From: Selaginella tamariscina
Lineage: Eukaryota > Streptophyta > Lycopodiopsida > Selaginellales > Selaginellaceae
Direction of reading: 5' to 3'
Assembly: GCA_003024785.1 (NCBI GenBank)
Contig: PUQB01000054.1
Span: forward strand, 715,291 to 779,290
DNA: 64,000 bases
The position numbers and the translations under genes are program-made. Below are positions 7,783-28,317 of this stretch, in pieces. The notes beneath the pieces were generated by a model that did no database searches, was not told the DNA's origin, and saw nothing but the letters and a program-made list of their open reading frames with translations. The number at the start of each line of letters is the position of its first letter. Position 1 is the first letter of the stretch.

Positions 7783-7998
7783 TGTCAAGCCACGATCCAG
7801 AAATAAAGAAGTGAGCAGGATTTCGAGAACAAGAAGTTTGACTCAGAAGCAGACAAGAAGCAGCACAGAGAGTAGACATGAACTAGGAACCAGGAACAAG
7901 ACAAGAGCAGGAGGCAAGGAGCAAGACAAGACAAGATTGATCGTAGAAAGACTGGTGTTGATATTAACTGATTGTACAACAATTAGGTCGAAGCTTTT
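7783..7998 (-). repeat. Chromovirus 3' LTR, distal part
   Basis: Matches 27921-28133 of the right LTR base for base with scattered differences, beginning tgtcaagccac. It is interrupted at 7999 by the DNA transposon and resumes at 16632. The small ORF across it is not a gene. Confidence 0.85.
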
Positions 7999-8025
7999 AT
8001 GCATGTTATAACTAAAATGGGCATG
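7999..8025 (+). repeat. Left terminal inverted repeat of the DNA transposon
   Basis: Begins ATGCATGTTATAACTAAA and continues to GGGCATG. It pairs with the reverse complement of 16605-16631, 24 of 27 positions equal. Confidence 0.85.
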
Positions 8026-8430
8026 GCTATAGTCCCATTTCCTAATAATTAGCAATTTTAGCTATTTAATTAGCATTTTCTAATATTAAAGGAATATTCT
8101 TTAGAATATATTTTGAAAACAGAATATTCTTTAAAATATTCTATTTTGTATTCTTAATATAACAATTAAGGAAGAGCATAAGAGGTACATTATATAAATA
8201 TTGATGTTGTTATTAAAATATTAATATTTAAATATAACATTATTAATTAAAAATTTGTAGTAGTAATAATATATATATAAAATCCTATAATAATATAATC
8301 AATCTTCCATATCATGTTTTAAATTTATATAGTTAAGTAAACAATTTGGTACTATTATTAAAGAGTTTATAATAATTATGAATATTAAATATATGATATT
8401 TTATAATTTTGTAATTGCTTTAAGCTTCAG
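8026..8430. other. Subterminal AT-rich part of the DNA transposon
   Basis: AT-rich, no gene seen. It lies between the left inverted repeat and the 3' end of the transposase gene. Confidence 0.5.
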
Positions 8431-10790
8431 AAAACATACATTCCTTGCAATTTTGTTAATCGTGACTTTATCAACACTTCTTGACATCCACCCATATCGA
8501 ATGGATTTAACATTTATAAAACATGCTGGGTCTTTTTGATTGGGAGACCATATTTTCTCTAGGCATCCATTATATCTTTCGCTCTCCTTCTCGTGTCGCC
8601 TTTTTTGTGGTTTGAACCATGCAACCTTAACAATATATTTTTTGTGATTACTTCAGGTGTGTCGATAATTTGACCCATCCAAATAGGTTGATTATATGAT
8701 GCATCTGGAGTAATGAGAACCATCATTAGCTTTTGAAGATCTTGGCAGCAATCAAAGTATGCTTTAGGTTTTTGGTTCCTTTATCCAACAAAGTGTGGGG
8801 TTTGCACTTCCACATCACTACTGGCTTCTATGTCGTCTATGCTCAATGATGTCATTTCAATCTCCTCTCGCCACCTTGTTTTAGGCCAAAAAGGGTGTTG
8901 CAATTCTGTACTTGTGACAGTAGGCCTTTCCAACTCTCGAACAACAGTTCCCAATAGTCAACCACATGCTTATATAGTTCTGAGTAACCAGTTGCCTTAT
9001 CAGAATTCTTTGGCATCGATTTTTGAACCCATGCCACATATTTTTTGACGCCATCAATAATAACCTCTTGTTCCTTGAGCTGGGCACTCAATGAATAGGG
9101 TCTGATTGTCCTTCTGGGAGAAGTGGCTTTCCATTCTCTCCACTTTTGAAGAGCATTAACCCCTCTTTCAGTAACCACTCATACTCTGATGGCCGTAACT
9201 TGTACTGCATAATAGGTATACCATCTCGTATGGAGAAAAAGAATTGTAACGGCACAAGGTGACCAACTAAAGAATCACTCCCCTCTTTTATATACTCCTT
9301 GAGAAATTTTTTGAAGTCTAGCACCTCAGTCACAAGCAAAGCAACAACTTTTTTTGGAGATGCAATTTTCAAAAAGATTCATCATATGCGGTAAGGTAAG
9401 TGCACTTGTCCTTTTTGTAGAGTTGGAGACCTTACTGAAGAACGCATCAATATCTTCATGAGTGTGACCAACCATAAGAAAACTGAGAGTGATTGTTTCA
9501 AACACACCTTTGGCAACAAGCATTGACAAGTATGCTAGCACATATCTAGAAAATAAAAGTAAGTATGAGCTTGAGAAACCCTTAAATAAAATGATTTACC
9601 TATTTTTGTTCTTGCCTGCACAATTATCCATCTGTAAAAGCAAATGACGAGGAAGCTTATTTGATGTTGAGGACACATGTACACTATTTGAGCTAGATCC
9701 CTCCACTGAACCTGAACTCTCAACATGGCCATCTGTTTTTTGTGCAGGTTGCTGACAATGCCTCTCATATTCCCAAGTAGCCTCAAGTGCAGACGTGTTC
9801 ATGAGAGCATTATGTAAAGGTTAAAGGTGTTGTTTCTTCACTTTGAGATCACCGATAGGACTTGTCTGTGAGTGGGCTTCAAGGTTTCTGAAACACATGG
9901 CCAATGACCCAATAGTGAAATTGGAGTCACTAGACCAATGTGGAAGTGAAAAGTGTCCATATGATTCACAACCGTGTCCATGTGTTAGCACACCTGTCAA
10001 TGAAATCGGAAGTTTCATGACATTTCCAAGGCACTTTGGTGTTGCAACGAGCTTTGGAATGCTAGTCTTTGAATGATTCATCTTGTCATGGATCAAGCAC
10101 AGGTACTCTGATGGGTGTGACACAGAAAGCATGCGGTGTGCATAGTACTGAGACCGGCAAGTTTGTTGCGCAATCATGTGGGCCTCCATCTTCTTTTAAT
10201 GGCAGTGATCTCCACCAAGGTTTTTGCACAAGCCTCTGCAGCCTTCAATGATGTACAAGTGTCACACTTGGAAAAGCTAGAGTGTTTTGCAATCTCCACA
10301 TCCTTAAAATAGTATTCCATATGTTGTTGAAGGCACCAGTGCAGATTGCTTGTAGCCCCATCAAGCTGAGGCACTTGTTCACATGTTCACACAACTTCAA
10401 TTGAGTGTAGATCGAAGGCAAAACCTTGAGATTTTCCCTGACCCTTGCATTTGTGGTTCGACATTTGTGAGGCATCTTGTTTGCATTTGCTTCCATAAAA
10501 GCCTTGAGTATCTCTATGGCTGCCATAATGTGAGAGCGGGTTTTGACCAAGCCAATGTTCCCATGTACTGAGGTTCGCGCTCCATCTAACCACTCATCCC
10601 TCCGACGGTAGAACGTGGTCTTTGGGATCCCATATATACTGTACCAAGCTTTGAAGCAGATGGCCACCTTATTAAATACCATGGATGTACTCTGATAACC
10701 TGTGTCCGAAGCCATTCCATCAATACACCCAGTTAGTGCAACATATACAAACTCATGCCTTTGCTTTTGGGTGAGTGTACCTGGAAGCAT
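8430..10790 (-). pseudogene. Transposase-like gene with VGHTHEDID motif, broken
   Basis: Start at ATG 10790 (MLPGTLTQKQRHEFV; a stop lies shortly upstream in frame). The N-terminal part (10245-10790) has a likely helix-turn-helix region (YSIYGIPKTTFYRRRDEW). Then come a Cys pair (SKCDTCTSLK) near 10260 and the core LLLQMDNCAGKNKNR near 9600-9650. A clean GT-AG intron (9546-9599) joins it to YVLAYLSML and VGHTHEDIDAFFS near 9450. The last part to about 8430 is fragmentary. The MDN...GHTHEDID pair with acidic residues is shared with a large eukaryotic family that I believe databases label DUF7869; a transposase role is inferred from its place inside inverted repeats. Several frame changes and stops show this copy is dead. 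Confidence 0.7.
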
Positions 10791-10875
10791 GTTGAAGCAT
10801 CTCCAAAAAAAGTTGTGCTTTGCTTGTGACTAAGGTGCCAGACTTCAAAAAATTCTGCTCAGGGCATTGGCGTCC

Positions 10876-11468
10876 AGCAGGATTAATCCCGCCGCCTAGG
10901 GCCCGAGTGAAGGGCCGGGGCGGCGGGATTAATCCCGCTGCCTTGCGCAATCGGGCGGATTAATCCGCCGCCAAAGGCCTGCCTAAGGGCCTAGGCGGCG
11001 GGATTAATCCCGCCCGATTTCGAGCAGGGAATTGGCGTCCGGCGGGATTAATCCCGCCGCATAGGGACCGAGTGAAGGCCCTGGGCGGCGGGATTAATCC
11101 CGCCGAGCCTTCAATGCCTGTTGGAGGAATGAATCCCACCCTTCCTTTTTTTCTCCATTGGTGAGTCGGACCAATCCCAAACGTTTCTGTCTGAGACGTA
11201 GAAGGTTTACAACATACCAATGGAGAGAACTGGGAAGGGTGGCGAAATTCATTTAACCATCCCTTACATGGTGGGCGAGATTAATCCCGCCTCCTTTCTG
11301 GAGTCACTGAAGGGGTGTGCCAAATAAATCCTGCCCAGTTCTCTCTGAGACCGAGAAGGGTGGCAAGATTAATTCCGCACTCCCGTTCAAGGCCTCCAGA
11401 AAGGTGGCGAGATTAATCCCGCCCACTCTTTCAGGAGGCATTGAAGGGGTGGCGAGATTAATCCCGCC
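10876..11468. repeat. Array of about 13 copies of an 18-bp palindrome
   Basis: Unit GGCGGGATTAATCCCGCC, a perfect palindrome. Copies: 10876-10893, 10922-10939, 10954-10969 (16-bp form GGCGGATTAATCCGCC), 10997-11014, 11041-11058, 11087-11104, 11123-11140 (weak), 11241-11258 (weak), 11274-11291, 11318-11335 (weak), 11362-11379, 11406-11423, 11451-11468. Spacing is irregular (32-118 bases centre to centre). A longer unit is duplicated too: about 10859-10940 resembles 11023-11105. The array lies between the divergent transposase and methylase-like genes, where a shared promoter would be. It is far more GC-rich than the surroundings. ORFs across it are chance readings of the repeats. Confidence 0.9.
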
Positions 11469-11584
11469 GCACCTTCCATGTGAATATATATGTGTATTAG
11501 TATATATAAGTTGCATATCTCATTTTATTTACTTTTATCATCTTATCATAATATTTCGAGTAAAAGCTAGGAAACTATGTAAAA

Positions 11585-11666
11585 CTGTCCAGAGCTCACA
11601 TTTGTGGTGGTTCTAAAACGAAATGTTATCTTTCTTTGCACTAGCACAAATGTGAGCTTTGGACAG
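11585..11666. repeat. 22-bp inverted repeat before the methylase-like gene
   Basis: Arms CTGTCCAGAGCTCACATTTG.. (11585-11606) and its reverse complement (11645-11666), 21 of 22 positions equal, 38-base loop. It lies 145 bases before the ATG of the plus-strand gene. It may be a hairpin or a paired binding site; function unknown. Confidence 0.75.
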
Positions 11667-11810
11667 TTAATTCCGTCTACTTCTCTCTGTGTATTATTTT
11701 TGTATATTCGGGTTTATACAAGTGTGTGTGCGTTTTTATATGATTTGTATTCATAGTGTATTATTTTGCAGAAGGACGATTTAATTAAACAAGGAGATCG
11801 AGTCATTAGT

Positions 11811-14800
11811 ATGGAGTCGTCGTCAAATTCTGGGTAAGAATTAAAATAAAATCTGTTATACTCGGATATGTGCTTAACTAATCATTTTTGTATTCAGATG
11901 TGGAATTGAGGTGACATTAAAGACGAGAGCAGGAGAAGAGATGGGCAGGGGGATTCTGGAATCAACTTGGCCATATTTCAAACTAAACGGGAAGCGCATT
12001 GGAACAACCATGGTTGCTGTCAAACTAACCTCTGTCACATCGCATGGACAAGCAAAACAATGGAAAGTGGGTGTGCTAGTCAAGCATCCGAAAGCATGCT
12101 GTGAACCCAGATTGAACGATGCTCGACACATATGCCTTGTTCCATCCAATGTCACGTTCTCGGATCCAGAGGTCGCAGTTACAACATTAATTTCGGGTGG
12201 TTTTGTCGACTTGTGGATAATGACGTTCACGTGTTCACTAATGATGTTGACCTGGAGTTCTTCTTCAACTCAACGAAAGCCCATCTATGGAGGGGATCCA
12301 ACTGGATGTCTACTTCGAAGATCTTCAGACTCATCGAGTAGGTGTATTGTCAGGAGATATTGCTTCACAATACAGAAAATCACAAGTGGAGCAATCGTCC
12401 CTCTTCACATTGAAGAAGAACACAGCGACATCATAAAGGAGATTGAGAGGGTGGCTTGGTCTCAGGTTCTTTACAGATCACGTTCAATTTGCTTAGCAAA
12501 TTTCGGGAGCTGGAAGAGTGTGCCGAGAACATTAGAACAGCATCAATCGGGGATCACACATGTTGATTCGGATCGTAGAAGAAAATCATTAGTCGTTTTG
12601 TCAGCTGCACCTGTGGCATCCATGCTGCCAATAAGCCACAAGGAAATGATTTTGGATGATAGGATTTACGGTGTTAAGTATTGTAGCGTCAACCCAAACT
12701 TCAATTACAAGCCACTCAATCAAGAACGTGTAGCTGAGCTCATGGAGAAGATGAAGGACGACAATTCTTACACCGTTCCATATAATGCTGTTTTGTGCGC
12801 ATACTACGAGAGAAACAAAGGAACTGACAAAGTGTGGATCATAATAGCGGAACAAATGAGGAAGGTTCAGACGGAGAATAGAAAATCAGTTAAGTACTAC
12901 ATCATTAGTGGCCAGCACATAACGGCACCCAACGACTTCTCGACGAACACAACAAAGGAACGATGGCAACAAAACTTTCGAGCATACTGTGAGAAGCTGA
13001 CGAAAAGATCGGCGTTTTTAGTGAAGCGAATCTCACAATCGAGCAGTACCATAAGTTATCGGCGGAATGGGACGCTGCAGACACCAACCACTACAACAGC
13101 AAAATATGGGAGAAGTTCAAACACACGCGAGCCGTGTGGGAATCTCTTTCAGCGACCACAAAGAGCTACCGCAGGGAATACACAATCTGCGGATACCGGG
13201 TAAGCAAATTGTTTGGGCGGGATTTATCTCGCCGGTATATTAATATGTCTTTTTTCTCAGAGAGTTGAAGAAATTGTAGCAGTTGATTTTGCCCAGGTGG
13301 GCGGGAAGGAAACATCCTTTTTGATGATGTTGATTTCTTGTCCGAGGATAGGATCTTTGCGAAATGGTTGGGATTATGGAATCCTTTGCAAAAGGAACAC
13401 TGAAGAAGAAGCAGACAAGTGAAGTGGAGCCCTCAGAGAAGTCTGCAAAGAAACCCAGTAAGACGTCGAAGGCTAAGTCTGTTCAATTTATAAAGGATGT
13501 AGACAACGATTTCAAGCTCACATGGTTGAAGCCTTTAAATAGAACAACGATGGAGGAGATGGAAGTCTTGGCTAATTTGGTGATTGGTGGCAAATTACAG
13601 ATTAACAACAGCAGCCCCACCTCTCCTTTTCATCTCAAGGCAATGGAGTTGAAGAGTCAGGCACTTCAAGGAGTGGTTGGGAATACACTGCCACAAACTG
13701 GGTTGGATTTCGGCTTCAACATACGAAGAGGTCAGCAAATATTTGCATGTGATAAATGATGATATGCTTGTCGAATGGGTGAATCAATCGGAAGATCTGG
13801 GCAAGAATCTATTGCATGCCAACGCCAAAAAAGGAGAACATTGCGATGACGCCTTCTCTTATGGCAGTTCTTCAGCAGCGGAGAACTGAGTTGAACCTTA
13901 TAAAGGAGGATGCTACGAATCATGACAAGCCCTACAGATGTTTGTTGTTGGATTCGGAGACTTTATGGGGTACCATCACTGCTTGTAGGAAACCGTTTCA
14001 ATTGTTCGTGATGGATCGGCGGGTGTTAAAAAATCCTTCGACAGACAGGACACTAAGAGGATTTGGTGGAGAAACTTAGTCGTGCAAGTATGTACAAAGA
14101 AGGTATTTATTATTAAATTCATACTTGCACTCTTGACTGATATCTACGTTTTTAGGTATTTATTTTTTGATTCTTGCTCATGTCACCGATACCTTTGCCT
14201 TCTCCTTTGCCAAGAGGAATAAACATCGTTGGACAGGATTTTATATGAATGATGCTGATCCGAAGTGCATTGATTCGGTTGTTCACTTGGTTGTTAGGAA
14301 TGCGCCAAACAGTTTCAAACTTCTAAATGACTGGCCAGGCATCTGTTTGCACTCCAACGGCCCTGAACCTCCATCCAATACACCGATAGGTGAGAGTGAC
14401 GTATTCGGCAATGTACATTATCCAAACATCACAAGTCAAGCGGCACGGAGCATCGTCAACTTGATCAGGGGTCCTCATAGTGATGCGTGGGTTTTTGACT
14501 ACTGCACTAGGGGTCCGTCTTGAAGGAGTGTTACCTTCGGCATACATGTGTATTTGCCGTTGAAAAGGATAAGGCCATGGTTGAGGACCTGAACAAGTGG
14601 ATAGATAGGTTCTCAACTGAATACCCCAACAAATCCATAAAGGAGTATTTGAGAAAGTTCCCTCCCTATAAGTGCGATAGTTCTGAAGATGAATCTGGTT
14701 CAATGTCGGAGTTTGAGGACGAACTTCAATCAGATATTAGACCGGAAGTTATCTCGAGGAGTACAGAACATTCGCACACTCCATTACCCATGGAAACATC

Positions 14801-14903
14801 AATAGAAGATACAGAAGATCTTGAACCATCTCACAAGCGACTTAGACCTTCTTCGCCTCACTCAGAAGGTAATAGCGAAGAAGAATTGTTAATGAGTTCT
14901 TAG
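11811..14903 (+). pseudogene. ParB-like / DNA-methyltransferase-like protein gene
   Basis: ATG at 11811 (MESSSNSG), a clean GT-AG intron 11834-11897, then a long reading. Around 12661-12918 it reads like a ParB-type domain: IYGVKYCSVNPN, then LNQERVAELMEKM, a valine/proline strand, and YYIISGQH (the GGQH/GHHR box of that fold). Further introns fit at 13200-13260 and 14103-14155, since frames join across them. Near 14460-14580 VFDYC, then GSVLKECYLR and FAVEKDKAMV, match motif I and the following acidic strand of DNA methyltransferases; the conserved motif itself is cut by a frameshift. No DPPY/DPPW motif was found, so the catalytic class is open. ParB-methylase fusions are known from bacteria and phages. 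The tail is acidic and Ser-rich (KRLRPSSPHSE). At least five frame breaks make this copy inactive. It is divergent from the transposase. Confidence 0.6.
13216..13233. repeat. 14th palindrome copy, inside an intron
   Basis: GGCGGGATTTATCTCGCC, two changes from the array unit, located in the inferred intron 13200-13260 of the methylase-like gene, about 1.75 kb from the array. Confidence 0.75.
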
Positions 14904-15202
14904 AGTGACGAATAGTTGTAAATGAGTGTAACATAAGGCATTTTTGTATATTTGTTTATATTTGTACAGAAAATAAATTCTCAAGGATTAATGAAGCTTT
15001 TAGTTCAAACATGGGTCACACATTAACAAGGTAAATAATATACCTTGATAATTTTAAGGTCAGCTAATTATCATTTTGCAGATGTAATGAAACAATTGAG
15101 AACATGGATTTTCAGCATTGGCATGAGGTAAGAGAGGGGTTTGGCGACAATTTCTTGTGCCACATGTCAGAATGACAGAGTTCATGCAGGAAATGGATAA
15201 TA

Positions 15203-16087
15203 ATGCAGCTCAAAACATCGTTATCACGGGGGCCACTTCAGTTTTTCATCATCATTTTTATTGGCTTCAGTTCGAAATCAATTTCTTTAGTGCATGCAAT
15301 ATCTGAATTTTGTAAGGATGATGTACAATTAAATGATGAAGGGATAGACAACGAGATAGTGTCAACGGATAAATGTGAAAGGGAGCAAACAAGTGATTTG
15401 CAAAGTATTCAAGAGGCAACGCTATCCCATGTTACTCATGGCCATATTGTGTTGTTGGATGTCAATGGTGTTCTGCTTCATCGACAAAGGCCGAGGATAG
15501 GAAAAAAGAAATCAAACAAGGAGATTTCATTCTTCATGGTAAATTTTGATATGATATTATTTTTCGTCTAGGGTTGGATCGTCTCTTTCAAAAGCTTAAG
15601 GAGATGGGTGCGCTTGTGGGGATTTGGTCATGCATGCAGATTCATAACTTAACACCGCTGTTGAATTTGCTTAAGAAACATTGTAGTGTTGCAGAAGAGG
15701 TGATTCGTAAAGATTGGATTTTTGACCAATGAATGTGTTATAAACCTCTCGAATTTCACAATATAAGAAAGGAAAGCAAGCCGTACTTCTTCAAGAATGA
15801 AAAAATAATTGGGACTCATGGGAGATCAATCGCTTAAGGATAATGAAGAACGCACAGATTTAGTGGTAGACGACTCTCCTCAGAAGGCTATGCTGAACCA
15901 AAACATTGCTTGTATTCATCCAATCACTTTTGATCCATATTCTGATACTGATATTATGGATGAGCTAGTGAATTACTTGGATACGTGCCTCAGAAAGAAG
16001 AATCTCGAAAACTTTTGTGAGCAGTATCCACCGTATCAAACATTTCCTGAAGCTTTTCTTTCTCGTGATTTGAATTTTATAAAATGA
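15203..16087 (+). pseudogene. FCP1/SCP-like HAD phosphatase, transposon cargo
   Basis: The first block (15203-15571) contains HIVLLDVNGVLLHR, the HAD motif I region with the two aspartates changed to DxN as in plant FCP1-like proteins. A middle block in another frame (15572-15720) reads LDRLFQKLKEMGALVGIWS. The last block (15809-16087) has LVVDDSPQKAMLN, the C-terminal HAD acidic motif, then IHPITFDPYSDTD and a Leu-rich helix, as in the NLI-interacting factor-like family. A GT-AG pair (15539-15571) may be an intron, but the frames do not join, and an internal TGA occurs near 15730. It is probably a captured host gene, since it lies inside the inverted repeats. Such enzymes dephosphorylate proteins; a role in transposition is not implied. 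Confidence 0.65.
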
Positions 16088-16356
16088 AGGATAGCAACCG
16101 GGCGCTTTATAATATTATTCTTAAGGAACGTCATTCTTTAGATGAGCCTTTATGCAGACCTGGTCTTATTACATCTTATGTATTAACAAGGATGGCAACT
16201 CCCAATTGCATTCGTGAGAGTGTTAGGTGGTGGCAACAACATCAAGATATTGACCAAAATGATTTGATTAATCCGGAGAGTGATGATTTAGACAAAATGA
16301 GGAAATTTCTCTGTATGGTTAGGAAGAAAGTATTTATAAATAAATTAACATGTTGA
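16084..16356 (+). CDS. Short ORF of unknown function in the transposon
   Basis: 90 codons starting MKDSNRALYN, overlapping the end of the phosphatase reading by ATGA. It may be a frameshifted continuation of that cargo gene or a separate remnant. It contains RESVRWWQQHQD. I recognise no domain. Confidence 0.3.
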   Translation: MKDSNRALYNIILKERHSLDEPLCRPGLITSYVLTRMATPNCIRESVRWWQQHQDIDQNDLINPESDDLDKMRKFLCMVRKKVFINKLTC

Positions 16357-16604
16357 TAAGGAAATGATTTCATTTGTAATTATGTTTGATAGTATTTCTT
16401 AATTATTGTAAACTATTTTTAGAATAATATGAATATTCTAAAGATATTTTAGAATATTCCTAACTAAGTAAGGTTATTGAAGGATTAATTAATTAATTAA
16501 TTAATAATATTTAAGGCTTAATTACATATTAATTGAATGATTAGTTAATAATTAAAACTTAAGTATTAATTAGTAATTTATTTTATATTCCCATTTTCAC
16601 GTAT

Positions 16605-16631
16605 CATGCCCACTTTAGTTACAACGTGCAT
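16605..16631 (-). repeat. Right terminal inverted repeat of the DNA transposon
   Basis: Reads CATGCCCACTTTAGTTAC.. to GTGCAT on the plus strand, reverse complement of the left end with three mismatches. The 250 bases before it are AT-rich without a gene. Confidence 0.85.
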
Positions 16632-16855
16632 TTTTATATTCACAACTCCAAGCTAATCTGGTGATGAGTCTAATCTGGTCATGAGCTAAAAATAGTGACC
16701 TTTATCCTCTAGGCATATCCTGTAGTATATCCTATAGGCATATCCTGTAGGTATATCTTGTAGGAATATCCTGTAGGCATATTTTGTAGGTAGATCCTAT
16801 AGGCATATCATGTAACCCGTATTCTGTATCCTGCATTATGTATCAGATCGTGATA
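16632..16855 (-). repeat. Chromovirus 3' LTR, proximal part
   Basis: Continues the LTR interrupted at 7999 and matches 28128-28317. It has a 17-base local duplication near 16660 and eight 13-bp tandem units against seven in the right LTR. The first base pair of the element end reads TA instead of TG on the minus strand. Confidence 0.85.
16712..16814. repeat. 13-bp tandem repeat in the left LTR (8 units)
   Basis: Unit about GGCATATCCTGTA, eight imperfect copies (one of 12 bases). The counterpart at 28187-28276 has seven. The core word ATCCTGTAGG recurs in the unrelated plus-strand element and in both pol regions. Confidence 0.85.
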
Positions 16856-27920: not shown

Positions 27921-28317
27921 TGTCAAGCCACAATCCAGGAACAAGGAAGTGAGTAGGATTCTGAGAACAAGGAAGCTTAACTCAGAAGCAGGACAAGGAG
28001 CAGGACATGAACTAGGAACCAGGAACAAGACAAGAGCAGGAGGCAAGAAGCAAGACAAGACAAGATTGATCGTAAAAAGACTAGTGTTGATAGTAACTGA
28101 TTATACAACAATTAGGTCGGAGCTTATATACTCACAACTCCAAGCTAATCTGGTCATGAGCTAAAAATAGTGACCCTTATCTTCTAGGCATATCCTGTAG
28201 TATATCCTATAGGCATATCCTGTAGATATATCCTGTAGGAATATCCTACAAGCATATCCTATAGGAATATCTTGTAACCCATATCATGTATTTTGCATCA
28301 TGTATCGGGTCGTGACA
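27921..28317 (-). repeat. Chromovirus 5' LTR (complete)
   Basis: 397 bp, on the minus strand TGTCACGACCC to TTGACA. It serves as the reference that shows the DNA transposon boundaries in the left LTR. The sequence just inside it (minus strand GTTTGATAATAATTG) is not an obvious initiator-Met primer site, so the primer tRNA is unclear. Confidence 0.9.
28187..28276. repeat. 13-bp tandem repeat in the right LTR (7 units)
   Basis: Same unit as 16712-16814, one copy fewer. Confidence 0.85.

Follow-up and report, generated by a model that had tools for sequence, protein, structure and literature searches.

Sola transposons are among the closest described systems to the element analysed here, a DNA transposon copy at positions 7999..16631 of a 64,000-nucleotide stretch from Selaginella tamariscina (contig PUQB01000054.1, positions 715,291 to 779,290 of the forward strand), which as a whole is called the window. 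According to the available extracts of the reports cited here and below, Sola elements have 4-bp target-site duplications (TSDs), which are AT-rich in Sola2, a DDD transposase and terminal inverted repeats (TIRs) of 11-1124 bp. Their size is mostly 2-9 kb, with some longer than 15 kb; Sola1 is listed for the moss Physcomitrella, whereas in flowering plants Sola does not seem to be common (PMC10741241, PMC9033089). In amoebae, Sola2 chimeras contain passenger genes that can be exchanged (Fanzor1) (PMC3627910).

In the VANDAL transposons of Arabidopsis, the VANC protein binds a short motif and causes loss of DNA methylation. The target motifs form tandem repeats in the noncoding sequence of the elements, both in front of VANA and within introns of VANB and VANC, and these repeats have been gained and lost among copies (PMC5735166). 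Fungal DNA transposons carry TET/JBP genes that are thought to counter silencing (PMC12730594). In the TET-carrying IS3EU elements, which have TA..TA termini and usually 6-bp TSDs, the transposase and an alpha-kinase gene are oppositely oriented (PMC12730594, PMC10045372).

The original prediction for this locus, made from the letters of the window, described a transposase-like gene and, divergent from it, a spliced gene for a ParB-like domain with a DNA methyltransferase motif. By comparison with its relatives in the same genome, we found that the window copy is an internally deleted, frame-broken derivative of a 13-15 kb element. We think it rather probable that this element is a Sola-like transposon with three genes, whose palindromes are read by a protein of the element as a shared switch. 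The ParB/DNA-methylase identity of the spliced gene, here called gene A, is not supported by the profile searches described below.

Results

The boundaries of the window copy, which is 8633 bp long, were fixed by its TIRs, by an empty-site relative and by full-length copies. The left TIR (ATGCATGTTATAACTAAAATGGGCATG, 7999..8025, plus strand) and the right TIR (16605..16631, minus strand), which is found at the right end of 6/6 full-length copies, are 27 bp long and identical at 24/27 positions, and their local alignment score of 39 compares with a best score of 34 among 300 random window pairs. The termini of the element read ATGCA...TGCAT (ATGCAWG). The left flank (7783-7996) and the right flank (16632-16814) both align to a stretch at 27921-28290 of the window that resembles a long terminal repeat (LTR), and the flanks, when joined with one TTTT removed, align across the empty site in this related LTR. 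These results confirm the exact insertion into an LTR and the 27-bp inverted ends that had been described from the letters. The TTTT that had been proposed as a possible duplication (7995..7998 on the left and 16632..16635 on the right) proved to be a true 4-bp TSD, as exact 4-mers are found in 6/9 family copies. Longer duplications of 6 or 8 bp were also considered for the window copy (GCTTTTAT/ATTTTTAT) and were dropped once the full copies gave 4 bp.

Other copies were sought in the 300.7-Mb assembly of the genome, which comprises 1391 contigs. NAC (PF02365), a protein family of land plants and their close relatives, has 50 exon-wise matches in this assembly, against none in 14 control genomes, as would be expected of a land plant. 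The left 81 bp of the element matched at 96-100% identity in the best 40 of 215 candidate places. We examined 20 left-end stretches, two of which stop at contig ends, and extended six of them to full length. The search with the element ends, which the original prediction had proposed, thus recovered full-length relatives of 13.2-14.9 kb: six with both TIRs present, measuring 13,235 to 14,195 bp, and a seventh full-size copy, C904, which is 14,894 bp from end to end and was read in sequence except for about 4.8 kb of its middle. The full-length copy C1305 has two left ends about 0.8 kb apart. Its matching duplication is at the outer one, and its length of 13,713 bp and its array positions were counted from the inner one.

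For nine copies, namely the window copy, the six full-length copies, C904 and C202, the sequence of both ends was available. Exact 4-bp TSDs flank six of these nine (TTTT in the window, AAAC in C1170, ACAA in C615, TACA in C1305, GTTT in C715 and TTAT in C1). The TSD of C911 agrees at 3/4 bases (AAAC/TAAC), that of C904 (TCAT) is out of register by one or two bases, and the flanks of the internally deleted copy C202 show no TSD match. Copies with the same ends and without the plus-strand gene, a possibility raised in the original prediction, were not met among the full-length copies, all six of which contain gene A and a further gene, gene B. Internally deleted or rearranged copies (C202 and C915) exist too, and among the matches listed, gene A is found together with the left end for 3 of 40 left ends. 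The full copies are 95-99.5% identical over their right-hand half. We conclude that the transposon family is real and fairly young.

On five contigs (C1369, C1305, C453, C306 and C95; L060-L064), the left end has an identical flank of 8 bases, and a further left end follows about 0.8 kb inside the element. Because they have both features in common, they were counted as one insertion, which is taken as a duplicated locus or as redundant contigs.

In the full copies, a transposase gene with the DUF7869 domain lies on one strand, and genes A and B lie on the other. Between these two divergent transcription units lies a noncoding middle, and each unit has an upstream array. The transposase remnant of the window (8437..10772, minus strand), whose extent was determined by tblastn with the homologues joined into one query, has lost its N-terminus by deletion, and its frames are broken. 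Pfam recognises DUF7869 (PF25273) in two minus-strand window frames (E 1.6e-23 and 5.1e-06), so that the transposase-like gene first noticed by its VGHTHEDID motif stands. In the full copies, the gene has two exons, both of which are open in C904 (646 + 375 = 1021 amino acids), and C911 has a 660-amino-acid open frame. The 15 closest database homologues match at E values from 3.8e-178 to 2.0e-72, including P0001 with 43% identity over 87% of the query. DKMDQ is kept in 15/15 aligned homologues, and QxDN and GHTHED are kept in at least 90% of them (P0015 stops before both). We read DKMD, QxDN and GHTHEDID as the putative acidic triad of a DDE/D transposase. Exon 1, with omega values of 0.29 and 0.32 in two comparisons, shows apparent signs of purifying selection.

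Weak DUF7869 relatives were found in the liverwort Riccia sorocarpa (P0016 and P0017, with 34-36% identity over 19% and 13% of the query) and, at E 0.52 only, in the moth Dendrolimus (P0018). These proteins have the same Pfam domain, but the matches are short. Scans of genome contigs and of viral contigs found no relative of the transposase. A CC..CC motif lies in an additional N-terminal part of the long DUF7869 homologues P0003, P0004, P0005 and P0010. Three of these (P0004, P0005 and P0010) have a PF26133 annotation, and P0004 also shows a weak similarity to Transposase_23 (En/Spm) (E 0.023).

The arrays, which are absent from the original prediction, consist of units of GGCGGGATTAATCCCGCC, a perfect 18-bp palindrome. 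At up to 3 mismatches, this unit occurs 9 times in the window and 0 times in 100 shuffles, and all 9 units lie inside the element, with none elsewhere in the 64-kb window. Eight of them form the remnant of the gene-A-side array (10876..11468), and the ninth is a solitary unit in intron 2 of gene A (13216..13233); a unit inside gene A is also found in 6/6 full copies. The number of units per full copy varies (C1170 35, C911 39, C615 34, C1305 29, C715 31 and C1 27), and C904 has 16 units in the left part examined. The arrays are located at 3.2-4.7 kb and 7.0-9.0 kb of the full copies. Upstream of the transposase ATG, the left array (9-17 units) has its first unit at a distance of 154-155 bp in 5/6 copies, C715 being the one in which no ATG was found. 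Upstream of the gene A ATG, the right array (12-25 units) has its last unit at a distance of 354-364 bp in 6/6 copies. The spacing of the units, measured in three copies, is mostly 40-46 bp, with 44-45 bp the commonest. The arrays look like binding sites common to the two divergent transcription units.

The divergent, spliced plus-strand gene of the original prediction is present, with GT..AG introns. Its four exons are at 11811..11833, 11898..13199, 13261..14102 and 14156..14903 of the window, the boundaries of exon 1 being taken from a comparison with the C904 copy. Exon 2, which contains the "ParB-like" stretch (12586-12920), and exon 3 are frameshifted in the window; exon 4 contains the supposed methylase motif I (14490-14570). 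A complete reading of 976 amino acids was obtained with exons 1-3 of C904, which is itself frameshifted in exon 4, and exon 4 of C1353. These two copies and C470 belong to a second subfamily, the DNA of which is 93-94% identical to the window. All 7 aligned copies of the window subfamily (the window copy and the six full copies) have frameshifts in gene A. C673, whose gene A is 97.7% like that of the window, has a single 651-amino-acid open frame spanning exons 2 and 3. The "ParB" piece is found at no fewer than 150 scored places on at least 132 contigs (from 5554 first-look candidates); the matches listed are 78-85% identical to the window piece, and 140 of 150 contain no stop inside the match. 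A 34-bp inverted repeat (85%) with an 18-bp loop lies just upstream of gene A, at 11583-11668, and is possibly a hairpin in the leader or promoter of the gene.

We compared the complete reading of gene A with the majority sequence of the 7 window-subfamily copies, with eight one-base gaps. The two subfamilies differ by 129 substitutions over 2920 sites, which are distributed 31/30/68 over the codon positions (p = 1.8e-5). Of these substitutions, 67 are synonymous and 62 are not, and omega is about 0.35. The codon-position bias and the low omega indicate that gene A worked as a protein gene, apparently under purifying selection, while the subfamilies parted.

The nature of this protein was examined by profile searches, as the original prediction had suggested. 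By eye, IISGQHTITAAQRLL recalls what we take to be a ParB/DGQHR box, and DAWVFDYCTRGSVLKECYLRHTCVFAVEKD recalls what is presumably a methyltransferase motif I. Over the 976 amino acids of the complete reading, Pfam found no family at E <= 10. The "ParB" piece searched alone gave a single irrelevant weak match in Pfam (BUD3 PH, 0.059) and no match in the PDB; the methylase piece gave none in Pfam and matched designed repeat proteins only in the PDB. Searches of PHROGs and NCBIfam with the pieces of gene A gave chance-level matches only. In tblastn searches against phages, the ParB piece had three weak matches (E 2 to 6, in terminase and glycosyl transferase genes), and the methylase piece had none. 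With our own profiles, the score of gene A was equalled or beaten by shuffled sequences: 508/1500 for ParB (a narrow profile of YbdM-like proteins), 176/1500 for motif X/I and 504/1500 for the whole methyltransferase. In hhalign, gene A scored 2.8 vs 7.4 for ParB and 7.5 vs 13.0 for motif X/I, in each case against the best of 25 shuffles, and its best motif X/I alignment covers residues 798-880, where the motif had been claimed. The whole methyltransferase reached 6.9 vs 5.35 for the best of 25 shuffles, with a probability of 0.22%, and the stretch aligned is the N-terminus of gene A, away from the claimed motif.

The gene A sequence of the window copy gave similar results. Its methylase stretch was scored with a beta-class motif X/I profile made from 26 rows of YhdJ relatives, where it ranked 32/2318 (a ranking that includes 2000 shuffles and the window frames), and with the whole-enzyme profile, where it ranked 833/2603; both are at chance level. 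The window reading found nothing relevant in Pfam, PHROGs, NCBIfam or the PDB, and protein searches with its read-throughs found no homologue at E <= 10 (960 amino acids, 7398 candidates; 328 amino acids, 532 candidates). Likewise, scans of genome contigs and of viral contigs found no relative of gene A. The claimed motif I reads DYCTRGS, not [DN]xFxGxG; a DPPY-type motif IV was not seen, and its expected place reads FVMDRRVSKN in both subfamilies. The two domains assigned to this gene from the letters are thus without significant profile similarity. Among the titles and abstracts listed from the open-licence PMC literature, none concerned a DNA transposon of plants that carries a ParB/methylase gene or an NIF gene.

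Gene B, which the original prediction does not mention, lies downstream of gene A on the plus strand (15172..16356, ends approximate) and would encode an NIF/FCP1-like (HAD) phosphatase-like protein; its frames are broken in the window. PF03031, with a cut-off of 21.8 bits, matches the window read-through with 26.5 bits and a reading taken mostly from the 7-copy majority with 48.2 bits (E 1.2e-12). No PDB entry matched at E <= 0.01. The catalytic motif of NIF/FCP1-like enzymes has the consensus DxDx(T/V). In gene B, motif I reads LLDVNGVLL, in which the first Asp is kept and the second is replaced by Asn. Because the motif is DVNG and not DxDx, the product of gene B may not be an active phosphatase.

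Finally, we examined how the window copy arose from the longer element. Its alignment to the full copies stops at window position 10780 and picks up near 10852. About 5 kb is missing, comprising the transposase N-terminus, a palindrome array and apparent noncoding DNA. The deletion junction (10781..10864) contains a scrap of the transposase, 10797-10864 matching 9297-9363 in inverted orientation. Of seven copies that are 99% alike, three have more deletions than substitutions (C911, 25 vs 15; C715, 19 vs 13; C1, 43 vs 34); there is no such excess in C615, C1305, C1170 or the window copy. Because an excess of deletions is unusual for natural divergence, this result suggests that part of the frameshifts are assembly errors in repeats. 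The earlier statement that the window copy is dead is therefore certain as far as the 5-kb deletion is concerned and less certain for each frameshift, which may be an assembly error. The apparent death of such copies can partly be an assembly artefact.

Discussion

The arrangement of the full copies suggests how the element may work. The transposase would bind and cut the TIRs and insert the element with a 4-bp stagger, as its domain and the TSDs imply. A DNA-binding protein encoded by the element, most likely the product of gene A or the N-terminal part of the transposase, would bind the palindromes and switch both promoters together, whether by activation, by autoregulation or by relief of silencing. 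Gene B would have been captured from the host and would serve in regulation.

Several points weigh against this reading. The core columns of the units are 79-100% conserved and the flanking columns mostly 29-60% in three copies, a contrast that is inflated since the units were picked at up to 3 mismatches. The array positions are not independent of one another, given the identity of 95-99.5% among the copies over the right-hand half. The 976-amino-acid gene A is a composite of two copies, and no single copy examined was shown to be open throughout. Residues 18-56 of gene A align best to two N-terminal repeats of the transposase, and this likeness scores 25.6 vs 26.4 for the best of 40 shuffles. 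Gene B differs between the subfamilies by 12 changes over 999 sites vs 129 over 2920 in gene A, and its omega of 0.67 rests on these 12 changes and is little informative; because the two genes diverged differently, the right-hand module may be a mosaic. The assignment to Sola compares descriptions of elements, not proteins.

Three other explanations were considered. The arrays could be sites of a host transcription factor, for instance with E2F-like CCCGCC cores, through which expression would be timed to dividing cells; genes A and B would then be neutral or mildly useful passengers. Arrays directly upstream of both genes would suit such a role, and GGCGGG/CCCGCC resembles what we take to be the E2F core. 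However, the full E2F consensus is TTTCCCGCC, and the unit has AATCCCGCC instead. In addition, no array unit lies elsewhere in the window (the search covered the 64 kb and the copies examined), and gene A, because it appears to have been under purifying selection, is no neutral passenger. We regard this explanation as unlikely. The same selection bears on the possibility that genes A and B are decayed fragments captured from the host, without function, and that the transposase alone moves the family. The frameshifts of gene A in all 7 aligned copies of the window subfamily are what such decay would produce, but the excess of deletions in 3/7 copies means that they may partly be errors of assembly. 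The 651-amino-acid frame of C673 across exons 2 and 3, the 140 of 150 listed places that have no stop inside the match, and the codon-position bias with its omega of about 0.35 all argue against decay, and we hold this to be very improbable.

The third explanation makes gene A a ParB-like protein combined with a beta-class DNA methyltransferase, with which the element would mark its own DNA. Two stretches, IISGQHTITAAQRLL and DAWVFDYCTRGSVLKECYLRHTCVFAVEKD, resemble by eye what we take to be a ParB/DGQHR box and a motif I, and the best motif X/I alignment falls on the claimed stretch. On the other hand, the complete reading has no Pfam family and no PDB relative, the scores of our own profiles and of the hhalign motif X/I alignment are at the level of shuffled sequences, the window copy is likewise at chance, and MDRR takes the place of DPPY in both subfamilies. 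This identity is, in our judgement, quite unlikely. We keep to an element-encoded protein that reads the palindromes as the probable explanation.

A more specific version can be proposed, although we advance it only tentatively and consider it improbable as a whole. In this version, the product of gene A would bind the arrays at its own gene and at the transposase and would shield them from methylation or strip it, in the manner of VANC and with an independent origin in a Sola-like transposon, and the phosphatase-like protein would be a partner acting on the transcription machinery. If true, a VANC-like function would help to explain why gene A of a 14-kb element has 150 or more places in one 300-Mb genome. 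To our knowledge, few plant transposons have an escape from silencing that is understood at the molecular level. Another, unrelated family with a selected accessory gene and promoter-side palindromes would make such evasion directly testable. The family described here also brings a large element with a DUF7869 transposase to those known from plants.

The element can be compared with the known systems in several respects. Of the parallel drawn in the original prediction with fungal transposons that carry TET/JBP genes, a conserved accessory gene beside the transposase stands, and the DNA-modifying enzyme is not supported; the element has no TET/JBP gene. Membership in IS3EU is ruled out by the ATGCA...TGCAT termini and the 4-bp TSDs. 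The element is like Sola in its 4-bp TSD (exact in 6/9 copies), in its 27-bp TIRs, which are within the range of 11-1124 bp, and in its large size, and it is unlike Sola as described in that the available extracts do not mention a gene A, an NIF-like gene or palindrome arrays. A Sola-like classification fits by likeness of TSD, TIRs and size, for an element whose putative transposase has DUF7869 with the conserved DKMD, QxDN and GHTHEDID motifs. Among the VANDALs, which are MuDR-type, the VANC21 motif has 9 bases (YAGTATTAY) in one orientation, whereas the unit described here is an 18-bp palindrome. As in VANDAL elements, in so far as the extracts describe them, an accessory gene lies beside the transposase, the number of units varies from copy to copy (27-39), arrays lie upstream of both genes, and one unit is intronic. 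In this layout, the element resembles the targets of VANC anti-silencing, and its arrays are putative targets of the same kind.

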